Part shown: positions 25,237-31,244 of the stretch, in pieces | Position numbering within the stretch: the first letter of the stretch is position 1 | How the letters are laid out: every line of letters starts with the position of its first letter | Assembly (NCBI GenBank): GCA_020201435.1 | Contig: JAIVGS010000030.1 | Coordinates: 1 to 33,805 of the forward strand | Direction of reading: 5' to 3' | Origin: Myxococcales bacterium | GTDB lineage: Bacteria; Myxococcota; Myxococcia; Myxococcales; 40CM-4-68-19 | Length of the DNA stretch: 33,805 nt | Position numbers and translations under genes: made by a program | Notes under the pieces: generated by a model | Seen by the model: only the letters and a program-made list of their open reading frames with translations | Databases searched by the model: none | Told to the model about the DNA's origin: nothing

Positions 25237-25608
25237 ATGCCGACGATTAGCCAGTTGATCCGAAAAGGGCGCGACAAGGTCATCTACAAGGGCAAGGCCC
25301 CCGCGATGACGCGCTGCCCCCAGAAGCGCGGCGTGTGCACACGCGTCTACACCACCACCCCGAAGAAGCCGAACTCCGCGCTGCGCAAGGTCGCCCGCGT
25401 GCGACTGACCAACGGCATGGAAGTCACCAGCTACATCCCGGGCGTCGGCCACAACCTCCAGGAGCACTCGGTGGTCATGATCCGCGGCGGCCGCGTCAAG
25501 GACCTCCCCGGCGTCCGCTACCACATCATCCGCGGCACCCTCGACAGCGTCGGCGTCGCCGGCCGCAAGCAGGGCCGCAGCAAGTACGGCGCGAAGAGGC
25601 CAAGCTAA
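25237..25608 (+). CDS. rpsL: 30S ribosomal protein S12
   Basis: 123 aa from the ATG at 25237 ([13 protein letters not shown]), the normal S12 start; the frame is open further upstream to 25156, which includes the promoter and is not coding. S12 sits at the decoding centre. Lys43 and Lys88, the residues whose change gives streptomycin resistance, are both the sensitive type ([11 protein letters not shown] and [12 protein letters not shown]). The stop overlaps the rpsG start by one base (TAATG). The start has a weak Shine-Dalgarno and a structured leader, which may matter for control. Confidence 0.97.
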
Positions 25609-26078
25609 TGCCGCGTAGACGAGAAGTCGCCAAGCGCAGGATCCTCCCCGATCCGAAGTTCCAGGACCGGCTGCTGGCCAAGTTCATCAACGACATGATG
25701 CGCAAGGGCGAGAAGTCGGTCGCCGAGCGCGTCTGCTATCGCGCGATGGACCGCGTGCAGCAGGTCACCAACGACGATCCGTTGAAGACCTTCAAGAAGG
25801 CGCTCGACAACGTGAAGCCGGTGCTCGAGGTGAAGAGCCGGCGCGTCGGCGGCGCGACGTACCAGGTGCCGGTCGAAGTGCGGCAGGAGCGCCGGGTGGC
25901 GCTCGCGATGCGCTGGATCATCGACTACGCCAAGGAGCGCGGCGAGAAGACGATGGACCAGAAGCTCGCCGCCGAGCTGATGGACGCGGCGAACAACCGC
26001 GGCAATGCCGTCAAGAAGCGCGAAGACACGCACAAGATGGCCGAGGCCAACAAGGCGTTTGCCCACTACCGCTGGTAG
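25608..26078 (+). CDS. rpsG: 30S ribosomal protein S7
   Basis: A 156-aa protein of standard length. S7 nucleates assembly of the 30S head and binds near the E site. Family segments are [33 protein letters not shown] and [20 protein letters not shown]. Translation is coupled to rpsL by the TAATG overlap. In many genomes fusA and tuf follow directly; here the operon ends at a hairpin and fusA lies 3 kb further on after three minus-strand genes with its own promoter, so the classical str operon is split. Confidence 0.97.
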
Positions 26079-26112
26079 CGGCCCGAAGGGGCGCTACCAC
26101 GCTCTTGCTTTT
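26074..26112 (+). terminator. Terminator after rpsG
   Basis: GGTAGC (26074-26079) pairs with GCTACC (26093-26098), and GCCC with GGGC around GAAG, with one bulged G. The downstream stretch is moderately T-rich and ends in TTTT (26109-26112). It lies between convergent genes and includes the rpsG stop. Confidence 0.65.
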
Positions 26113-26116
26113 GCAG

Positions 26117-27916
26117 TCAGCGGGCCGTCCATCCTGCGGGCCACAGCGCGGGCCGCAGCGGTTCGCGAAATCGCGCCTGATATCGGACACTTAGATCGCG
26201 CGCCGCATTCGAATGGCCAAGCCGCAACTCGACCGCGGCGAGGCTCATCCAGACTTGCGGCGTACCACCGTCGATCTCGATCGCGCGCCGCATGGCTGCG
26301 CCCGCGTCCGTCCAGCGCGACTCCGCGCTCGCGACCAGGCCGAGGATGTACTGCGGATAGAATGCCAGCGGCGCGGCCTGCGCTGCGGCGGTGCACGCCG
26401 ACCGAGTCAGCGACAGCGCGCGGCCGCGGCTTCGAGCCCGACACTCGATCACCGCCGCGGCGGGAGTTCCCGGATACGCCGCGGCCATCTCCTGCGCGCG
26501 CGCGAGGGCGCGATCGTACCGGCGCTCGTCGATGTCCTCGTGCGCGGCGAGCGCGGCCTTCACGTACTCGGCCTCGCGCGCGGGCGGCAGCGGGGTCGCC
26601 GGGAAGCCGACGAAGCTCTTCATCCGCGCGCACTCGGCCGCGACCTGATCGGCGGCGCCGTGCGCTTTTGCGGCGGCGCGCTCGGCTTCGGACCAGAGAC
26701 CGGCTTCGAAATCGAGCTGCGCGAGCGCGGCCCACGCTTCCCGCGCGTTCGCCTTTTCTTCGGCGCGGACGAGCAGCGCGATGGCTGCCGTCCGATCTCC
26801 GCCGGCGAGCAGTCGGCGCGCGACGTAGAGGATCAACTGCGCCGGCGCCCCCGGCAGCGCCGCCGCCCGCCGGCAAGTTGCCGAAACTTCAGCGGATTCC
26901 GGCGCGATCGAGCACGCGAGGCTCTGCACACCGTCGGAGCGCGGGTACTTTTCGACCAGCGGCGCGAGCAGGGCGGCGGCCCTGGTCGGGTCCTTTTCAC
27001 GGACCGCGAGGGCGTCGTTGAACCGCTTCACGTCGTCCGGCGCGAGCGCGTCGGCGGGGTCGTCGCCCCCGCTGAAGAACCGGTCGGCGAGGGCGCGGCT
27101 CTGCTCGCGCGTCTCGGCATCCCACGCCACCGCGGCCGACTTCTCCAACTCGGCCCGGTAGGCCTTTCCCCACGTCTCGCGGCTGGCCGGCGACTTCCGG
27201 TACTCGAGCCCGAGCCCGACGATCCGCGCCGACTCGGGCGAGAACGCCGACTGCGACTTGTCGTAGATCGGCGACATCAGCCACTGCGGCGACCGCTCGT
27301 GGAATGCGCCCATCGTGTGCGCCCACTCGTGCAGCAGCACCGCCGTCTGCTTGTGCTGCCGCCGCTCGCGGGCGAGCTCGGTGCGCTCCTTTTCGGAGAG
27401 CAGGTAGAGGGCGCGGTTGATCTCGTCCGTCTCGGCGGCCGAGAACATCCCGCGCAGGACGAAGTGGCGCCCGAAGTACGGCCCCATCCCGAGCTGTTCC
27501 TGGGCGGCGGAGAAGACGTCGAGCGAGGAGACGAACCCGATCACCCAGTCGACGTCGTCGCCCTTGTCGAGCGCGATCAGCTGATCCAGCGGCCCCGTCA
27601 GGCTCGCCGAAGATCCCGTGCGATTCCAAGATCTTACCGCATCGAGCTCGAACCGCACCCCGAACTGCGCGGTGAGGATCTGGTTGGCCCGGTCGATCTG
27701 CTCGGCGACCGACTGCTCCCACCGCGGCGTCTGCGCCTGGTAATCGCGGTCAGCCCAGGCTCGAACCTTGAAGATGCGGATGTGCGCCGGCGGCGGCGTT
27801 TCCGCTGAAGGCTTCACCTCGGCAGGCTTGAGCGACTCGGCATACGAGTGCTGCGCCTGCCACGGGTTGGGGATCGAGCAGCCGGCGAGCAGCAAGATGA
27901 GAAACACACGCGGCAC
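26117..27916 (-). CDS. Metzincin-like zinc protease lipoprotein with TPR-like C-terminus
   Basis: About 599 aa from the GTG at 27916; an ATG at 27955 is possible but would overlap the transposase gene. The signal VPRVFLILLLAGC carries a lipobox (LAGC), so the protein should be lipid-anchored. Residues 196-206 are HEWAHTMGAFH, the HExxHxxGxxH zinc motif of metzincins, followed by Met214 in WLMSPIY, which fits the Met-turn. A YGR-type N-terminal region precedes it. The C-terminal half (about 320-599) is Ala-rich helical and resembles degenerate tetratricopeptide repeats. No near family is recognised. The likely role is proteolysis in the periplasm or at the membrane surface. Confidence 0.8.
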   Translation of the reverse strand: MPRVFLILLLAGCSIPNPWQAQHSYAESLKPAEVKPSAETPPPAHIRIFKVRAWADRDYQAQTPRWEQSVAEQIDRANQILTAQFGVRFELDAVRSWNRTGSSASLTGPLDQLIALDKGDDVDWVIGFVSSLDVFSAAQEQLGMGPYFGRHFVLRGMFSAAETDEINRALYLLSEKERTELARERRQHKQTAVLLHEWAHTMGAFHERSPQWLMSPIYDKSQSAFSPESARIVGLGLEYRKSPASRETWGKAYRAELEKSAAVAWDAETREQSRALADRFFSGGDDPADALAPDDVKRFNDALAVREKDPTRAAALLAPLVEKYPRSDGVQSLACSIAPESAEVSATCRRAAALPGAPAQLILYVARRLLAGGDRTAAIALLVRAEEKANAREAWAALAQLDFEAGLWSEAERAAAKAHGAADQVAAECARMKSFVGFPATPLPPAREAEYVKAALAAHEDIDERRYDRALARAQEMAAAYPGTPAAAVIECRARSRGRALSLTRSACTAAAQAAPLAFYPQYILGLVASAESRWTDAGAAMRRAIEIDGGTPQVWMSLAAVELRLGHSNAARDLSVRYQARFREPLRPALWPAGWTAR

Positions 27917-27929
27917 GGAGCCGCGAGCA

Positions 27930-28541
27930 TCAGCCCGCGGGGCCGCTCGGATCAAGCGCTGGCTTCGCCCGCCACCGACCGACGCGGAGAAGCCACGACA
28001 CCGGCGTCGCGAGCAGGGCCTCCCGGTCGCATCGCGCAGACGAGTACGGGTCTCTCGCGCCCTTTCCGAAGTGGTGCGCGAAATTCTCGAGGACGTAACG
28101 AATCGCGTTGACGAGCTCCGTCGGCGTCCTGAGCAGCCGCGAATGGTAATGGTCGGCGAACACGCGTCCTGACAAATTCATCAGTGTATTCAACGTCTTA
28201 GCAATGCGGATGCAGAGCCCCTGCATGCCGCGCGACAGCGCCTCGTTCGAGTCCGCTTCGACGATCAGATGCAGGTGGTTCCCGAGCACGCTGAACTCGA
28301 TCACGCGCAGACCCAGACGGCCTCGGGCCTTTTCGAAGCAGCGCGTGATCCGCTTGAAGCTCCGGCCGCTCCGCAGGTTCCAGACGTGCTGCCCAACCCG
28401 CAGCGTCACGTGGATCGGCGTCGGCTTCTCGAATCGCGGCCGCGGCGCGTGAGAAACGAGCGGTCTCCGGCCGTTGGGCTTGCGGCCAGCGCCGCGCCGC
28501 TTTCCACCCCGCTGTGGCAACGCGAACGCGAGCTGTTCCAT
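27930..28541 (-). CDS. REP-associated tyrosine transposase (RAYT, Y1/IS200-like)
   Basis: 203 aa. The HUH motif is His89-Leu-His91 in SVLGNHLHLIVE, and the likely catalytic tyrosine is Tyr149 in NAIRYVLENF. These, and the fold order, match the Y1 transposase domain that nicks and joins single-stranded DNA at hairpins. The N-terminus is Arg/Gly-rich (RGGKRRGAGRKPNGRR), likely DNA-binding. RAYTs are domesticated single-copy relatives that process REP palindromes. No inverted-repeat or target-site-duplication ends are visible, so it is not an obvious IS copy. It has its own promoter and ends 13 bp before the metzincin gene. Confidence 0.88.
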   Translation of the reverse strand: MEQLAFALPQRGGKRRGAGRKPNGRRPLVSHAPRPRFEKPTPIHVTLRVGQHVWNLRSGRSFKRITRCFEKARGRLGLRVIEFSVLGNHLHLIVEADSNEALSRGMQGLCIRIAKTLNTLMNLSGRVFADHYHSRLLRTPTELVNAIRYVLENFAHHFGKGARDPYSSARCDREALLATPVSWLLRVGRWRAKPALDPSGPAG

Positions 28542-28549
28542 TGATTCGG

Positions 28550-28578
28550 GATATAACGTATCGAGCGAGGCTCGTCAA
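28550..28578 (-). promoter_or_regulatory. Promoter of the RAYT gene
   Basis: On the minus strand: TTGACG (28578-28573), a 17-bp spacer, and TATATC (28555-28550). Only 8 nt separate the -10 from the ATG at 28541, so the mRNA should be leaderless or nearly so. The -35 contains the TGA stop of the broken gene upstream. Confidence 0.7.
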
Positions 28579-29001
28579 CGCCGTTTCGCAAAAATATTCC
28601 ACGTCCCTTTTCGCCCCAGCGCGGCGGCCGCCCATGAAACCAACTCCGTTTCAGGGCCGTTGAACGTCTTGCCGGCTCGTGCGATCCCGGCTTTGAGCAC
28701 AGCGCGGAGTTCTTCCGGGTGCGCCACCGGTGGTACTAGCGGGCGGAGAGTGACCGCCGTTAACTCAATCGCTTGCCACCACCCGCGGCCACTCCGCCTG
28801 GTCGGAACCGCAACGTGGAGTTCGAGGCGCAAACCGTCGGCATCGTAGGCGGCGGCGTACTCGCCGTCCTCCACATCGATCGACTCGACCGCGGTTTCCA
28901 TCGATCGACTCGACCGCGGTTTCGCCGGCACGAACCGACGAGTACGCGGTTACGTCGCCGTTTCGCTCGACGATGAAGATGGGGGGCCGCATGATCGTCA
29001 T
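28575..29001 (-). pseudogene. Small unknown gene frameshifted by a 25-bp duplication
   Basis: Two minus-strand frames join if one unit of the 25-bp tandem repeat (28874-28923) is removed. The first part is MTIMRPPIFIVERNGDVTAYS and continues to GETAVESID (from 29001, or MRPP from 28992). The second runs on as VEDGEYAAAYDADGLRLELHV and ends WNIFAKRR at 28575. The repaired protein would be about 133 aa, mixed alpha/beta and without signal or membrane segments. I do not recognise the family. The stop TGA serves as part of the RAYT -35 box. Since the duplicated units are identical, inactivation looks recent, or the duplication is a sequencing or assembly artefact. Confidence 0.8.
28874..28923. 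repeat. Perfect 25-bp tandem duplication
   Basis: 28874-28898 and 28899-28923 are identical; each unit starts CATCGATCGACTCGACCG. The unit length is not a multiple of three, so it shifts the reading frame of the gene that contains it. Confidence 0.97.
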
Positions 29002-29052
29002 GAGGCAGTAGCCAAGCGGTTGGACACCTTCCCGTCGGTCGCGCACTCGATC

Positions 29053-29081
29053 TTGACGCGGAGCATCCACGAGTGTAAAAC
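29053..29081 (+). promoter_or_regulatory. Promoter of fusA-tuf
   Basis: TTGACG (29053-29058), a 17-bp spacer, and TAAAAC (29076-29081), followed by a GC-rich discriminator (CCCGCG). The leader to the fusA GTG at 29166 is about 78 nt. Confidence 0.75.
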
Positions 29082-29165
29082 CCCGCGTTCCCTGGTCTTT
29101 GGCAGGTACTCCTTCATCCAGTCGCGCCGCCGTAAGGTGGCGCTTTTTCAGAGGTTTCTGAAGCC

Positions 29166-31244
<2,079 letters not shown>

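Follow-up and report, generated by a model that had tools for sequence, protein, structure and literature searches.

A 25-bp segment that stands twice in direct succession inside a small minus-strand gene raises the question of what the duplication represents: a fresh loss of the gene, a reversible switch or an error in the draft sequence. The segment is located in the window, i.e., the whole stretch of DNA that was analysed (33,805 nucleotides), which is one entire contig of a 4.76-Mb, 363-contig draft genome. The two units and the two parts of the gene are placed as follows.

28874..28898, no strand: first of the two identical 25-bp units in tandem (TRF 100% identity; 25-mer unique to this site in the genome)
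28899..28923, no strand: second of the two identical 25-bp units in tandem (TRF 100% identity; 25-mer unique to this site in the genome)
28900..29001, minus strand: N-terminal part of the broken gene, 34 residues (ATG at 29001; frame -_28768_29208 matches the homologue profile; codon usage)
28575..28898, minus strand: C-terminal part of the same gene, in a different frame (frame -_28578_28949 matches the homologue profile; 35% identity to the G004 homologue)

The first-pass annotation proposed an exact tandem duplication at 28874-28923, and its coordinates, unit length and identity are all exact in TRF (period 25, 2.0 copies, 100% matches, score 100). The array has the top score among the 39 TRF rows of the window, the runner-up reaching 60. 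Within the window the 25-mer occurs only twice, allowing up to 3 mismatches, and it does not appear in any of 100 shuffles; the exact repeat is not produced by chance alone. No further copy with up to 3 mismatches exists in the draft genome outside 28874-28923, and the exact 25-mer is not found in the viral contigs. The bases flanking the array do not continue the repeat. The self-match at a shift of 25 covers exactly 25 bases and, consequently, the duplicated segment shares no bases at its ends. A tandem duplication guided by end homology would show a few identical bases where the duplicated segment starts and where it ends; these were looked for at the site and are absent.

The same annotation held that the repeat breaks a small gene and that the removal of one unit restores a frame of about 133 aa. 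The interval 29001-28575 has 427 bases and, after subtraction of 25, the remaining 402 bases form 134 codons (133 residues and a stop), as claimed. This unbroken frame is a matter of arithmetic, and the two pieces were compared with the homologues separately, not joined. In the sequence as it stands, the frame that begins at 29001 runs into a stop at 28765 after 78 aa (by arithmetic), of which the first 34 are native, and the C-terminal part sits in a different frame (28575-28949). Since 25 is indivisible by three, the additional unit throws translation from the normal start out of its native frame once 34 of the roughly 133 residues are made. Adjacent identical copies, a unit length that is not a multiple of three and a position within a gene characterize a frame-disrupting tandem duplication, and the site shows all of them. 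With the frame left after residue 34 and the end reached after 78 residues, the gene is most likely inactive, and inactivation is the simplest expectation predicted for the two-unit allele. The duplication also creates an ATG at 28901-28899, in frame with the C-terminal part and directly before it.

Long open frames are common on both strands of this G+C-rich window (145 ORFs of at least 80 aa, open ends included). Therefore, an open frame alone is no proof of a gene, and homologues were used instead. A homologue is encoded in G004, another genome of the genus (35% identity to the C-terminal part, E 3.1e-4), and is found with 100% identity on contig MNFJ01000180.1 of Deltaproteobacteria bacterium 13_1_40CM_4_68_19. 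The G004 protein, P0003, used as query retrieves two further homologues, in G057 (E 1.9e-6) and G109 (E 2.0e-5). The frames of all three homologues are open, without internal stops. A profile built from these three sequences of other genomes, containing zero window sequence, was run against the 627 frames of the window (stop to stop, at least 20 aa). The C-terminal frame -_28578_28949 ranks first (E 7e-11, profile positions 18-104) and the N-terminal frame -_28768_29208 ranks second (E 0.0022, profile positions 1-48), followed by a third frame at E 2.3. The last portion of the N-terminal match lies outside the native frame. The first and second ranks of the frames on either side of the repeat confirm that a small gene is broken by it.

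The repeated peptide is covered by both gene pieces and is present once in the profile and in the three homologues, which makes one unit the likely older state. The three homologues are remote (24-39% identical to the pieces of the window gene), and it is their spacing, not a near-identical sister, that indicates one ancestral copy. The loci of these homologues contain no exact tandem repeat with a period of 10-150. P0003 alone as query against the genome that contains the window does not find the window gene at E 0.001. The first-pass annotation had pointed to the same gene in relatives as a check on the repeat; three remote homologues carry the peptide once, and the searches gave no close relative with one unit.

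A codon-usage score trained on six other frames of the window was followed in 60-base windows down the minus strand. One minus-strand frame is favoured in the windows starting at 29001 down to 28941 and another in those starting at 28929 down to 28857. The favoured frame switches between the windows at 28941 and 28929, and this switch is thus centred on the repeat. From 28845 down to 28737 the windows favour either no frame or other frames, whereas the C-terminal frame is favoured again from 28725 to 28653, in the last of these by very little, and not at 28641. The N-terminal part scores 0.517, the best of its six frames (the next, a plus-strand frame, scores 0.418). The overall score of the C-terminal part (-0.033) is also the best of six, yet not positive. 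Codon usage weakly backs a frame change at the repeat.

The broken gene is rare. A homologue occurs in 1 of 98 relatives, and 5 of 195 genomes of the phylum match another profile, one that also contains the window pieces (with the own genome counted and one of the five partial). A DNA search of 7 genomes of the genus returns the window itself and two matches only (51 and 45 bp), one in the fusA leader and the other in L057, inside a frame that resembles by eye a DegP-type protease. The L057 match was rejected as a relative of the broken gene, nothing there being better than E 0.12. Pattern-based scans with the C-terminal part find no relative in species genomes or viral contigs, nor does an alignment search of the viral contigs with this part, and tblastn against plasmids at E 0.01 gives no relative; the scanned collections may omit the window's own genome. 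At the E-value limits applied, neither gene piece nor P0003 is assigned to a family by Pfam, NCBIfam, PADLOC or PHROGs. A predicted structure of the intact homologue has a mean pLDDT of 45.1 (three rows), too low to be of use. The product may be an accessory or immunity-type protein, a guess that fits the small size, the rarity and the transposase-like neighbour. The gene is probably a rare accessory gene, and dispensable.

The placement of the gene is defined by two conserved borders and by two further genes of the same insert.

25605..26078, plus strand: ribosomal protein S7 gene rpsG, at the left-hand border (frame 25335-26078 matches Pfam Ribosomal_S7 at E 3.7e-66; start from the relatives' match)
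26117..27955, minus strand: TPR-repeat protein with a weak zinc-metallopeptidase match, in the same insert (Pfam TPR_19 E 3.4e-7)
27930..28541, minus strand: REP-associated tyrosine transposase-like (Y1_Tnp) gene, an open frame that adjoins the broken gene
29166..31244, plus strand: elongation factor G gene fusA, at the right-hand border (GTP_EFTU and EFG domains in Pfam)

The gap between rpsG and fusA is normally short within the str operon. The 11 genomes of the genus and family were searched for fusA, and both borders of the gap were placed in 7, where it measures about 0.24 kb (G004), 0.88 kb (G007), 1.16 kb (G003), 1.65 kb (G001), 1.70 kb (G005), 2.07 kb (G010) and 3.88 kb (G009). In G011, rpsG was not found on the fetched piece. 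The window insert (26079-29165), compared by blastn at E 1 with the pieces of the relatives (L058-L065), matches only at the borders and in stretches of at most 42 aligned bases. The zinc-metallopeptidase matches of the TPR-repeat protein (Reprolysin_5 and Peptidase_M10 in Pfam) are below cut-off. The transposase-like gene matches Pfam Y1_Tnp (E 4.2e-4) and NCBIfam REP_Tyr_transpos (E 6.1e-8), both below the curated cut-off, and related copies are present in 10 of the 11 genomes of the genus and family. The variable gap and the transposase-like neighbour point to an accessory slot.

Short exact duplications are also found at other places in the sampled sequence. The window and 20 further stretches of the own genome, 256,554 bases together, give 16 rows of exact tandem arrays with a period of 10-150, some of which describe one array. 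The 25-bp unit is the longest in this sample, a hexanucleotide run (L076) aside, followed by a unit of 21 bp (L070). The 59 loci of other genomes, which amount to at most 240,667 bases and partly overlap, give 12 array rows, with one array counted twice, and include a 24-bp exact duplication at L062 3568-3618. Evidently, mutation generates short exact duplications from time to time. An exact 17-bp tandem duplication is also observed at L035:2267-2300 (G003); its length is not a multiple of three and it has no end homology.

Two specific origins of the unit were considered and set aside. The neighbour at 27930-28541 resembles the RAYT family (IS200/IS605-like Y1), with relatives in most genomes of the genus and family as given above. 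On the other hand, it falls below the curated cut-offs, the 25-bp unit is no genome repeat family, and a REP/REPIN origin is rejected because the 25-mer is confined to the site at up to 3 mismatches. A search of the genome with the region 28500-29165 gives, at E 0.001 or better, no match beyond the region itself. The own genome does contain GGGGACACTC repeats and their complements in L070, L074 and L078, partly as exact tandem arrays in L070 and L078, which we take to be possibly REP-like; the window has no copy of this sequence, with up to 1 mismatch allowed. A hairpin-driven origin is unsupported, the fold energies being not unusual (z -1.04 for the 101 nt around the site and -1.67 for the array). 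Five inverted-repeat pairs occur in 701 bases, and the 12-nt pair that flanks the site is one of them.

The explanation that we consider likely is a recent illegitimate 25-bp duplication that inactivates a dispensable small gene between rpsG and fusA. The claim of a recent event stands: the units are identical and both frames are otherwise still open, which indicates that the duplication is recent. Rather unlikely, by comparison, is an assembly or sequencing artefact, in which the genome carries one unit and the draft contig two. The fragmentation of the draft into 363 contigs is compatible with an artefact, and an exact duplication unguided by homology could be a join error. However, a single ordinary read can generally cover an array of 50 bp, no other genomic copy of the unit (up to 3 mismatches) is available to confuse the assembler, and the same draft, as assembled, has other short tandem arrays. 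It is also very doubtful that the ATG at 28901-28899 starts a useful shortened protein lacking about the first 25 residues. This start shares the frame of the entire C-terminal part and directly precedes the repeated peptide, but no clear purine-rich ribosome-binding sequence is seen by eye before 28901 (none is clear before the start at 29001 either), and the N-terminal portion that would be missing is common to the homologues.

The first-pass annotation had offered a phase-variation type switch, a fresh inactivation and an artefact, and of these the fresh inactivation fits best. A switch, in which the cells alternate between one and two units and the gene between on and off, is highly improbable here, although 25 is indivisible by three and phase variation of pneumococcal capsule genes is reportedly attributed to spontaneous duplications inside coding frames (Waite et al.; PMC4022640). 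There is no positive evidence for it: the site has only two units and no end homology, the loci of the three homologues are free of exact tandem repeats (period 10-150), so the repeat is not conserved, short exact duplications are not confined to this site in the sampled sequence, and the fold energies are those already given. A looser variant, in which one- and two-unit alleles coexist in the wild and the collapse and re-formation of the 25 bp toggle the accessory gene without a standing array, is quite improbable.

In the inactivation reading, a small accessory gene (about 133 aa when unbroken) in the variable rpsG-fusA gap would have gained a 25-bp tandem duplication. The duplication would be real in the cell and not in the assembly only, and it may have arisen by a copying or end-joining event unguided by end homology. 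The frame would then be lost after residue 34 and stop after 78 residues, the product would be lost, and this loss would be cheap because the gene is accessory. Perfect tandem duplications occasionally collapse back by slippage, as those in pneumococcal capsule genes reportedly do. Reversion may thus be possible, as for any tandem duplication, but it would come with this kind of mutation and would not make the locus an evolved switch.

The nearest known case is that of the pneumococcal capsule genes. Waite et al. (2001, 2003) reportedly link spontaneous sequence duplications to phase variation of the pneumococcal capsule (type 3; cap8E, tts). By analogy, reversion is possible at the present locus, but there is no evidence for its use as a switch. 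In wchA, a tandem duplication accompanies the loss of the pneumococcal capsule, and no feature of wchA predisposing to mutation is reported (PMC4022640). The two cases share a short tandem duplication in a coding frame that disrupts the product; they differ in that phase variation or capsule loss is described there, whereas the present duplication is known from one draft sequence alone. The locus is of little import in itself; it cleanly illustrates a recent duplication, lacking end homology, that breaks the frame of a probably dispensable gene. A gene split in this way is easily missed or divided when a genome is annotated. Should both alleles be present side by side in the source sample, the locus would represent duplication-based on/off variation in an uncultured lineage.

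The same slot has other contents in G007, where a PemK/MazF-like toxin gene (Pfam E 1.2e-21) is placed at about 1908-2223 of L063, minus strand, in frame 1897-2754. Beside it, at L063 2229-2465, lies a 78-aa frame that is antitoxin-like by eye and whose sole weak Pfam match, RsmI_C, is below cut-off. Rfam at gathering thresholds gives five tRNAs and nothing else in the window. A terminator-like hairpin is seen at 29124-29143, the two such sites against 1.0 expected in shuffles being no excess. On the side of fusA, about 130 bp before the gene are common to the window and G003 (82%), and the fusA leader at 29036-29165 resembles the leaders of the relatives. Among nine aligned fusA leaders, TTGAC is present in 7, TGTAAA in 4 and TCTTTC in 7 (position not required), and these motifs are interpreted as a putative promoter and leader of fusA.
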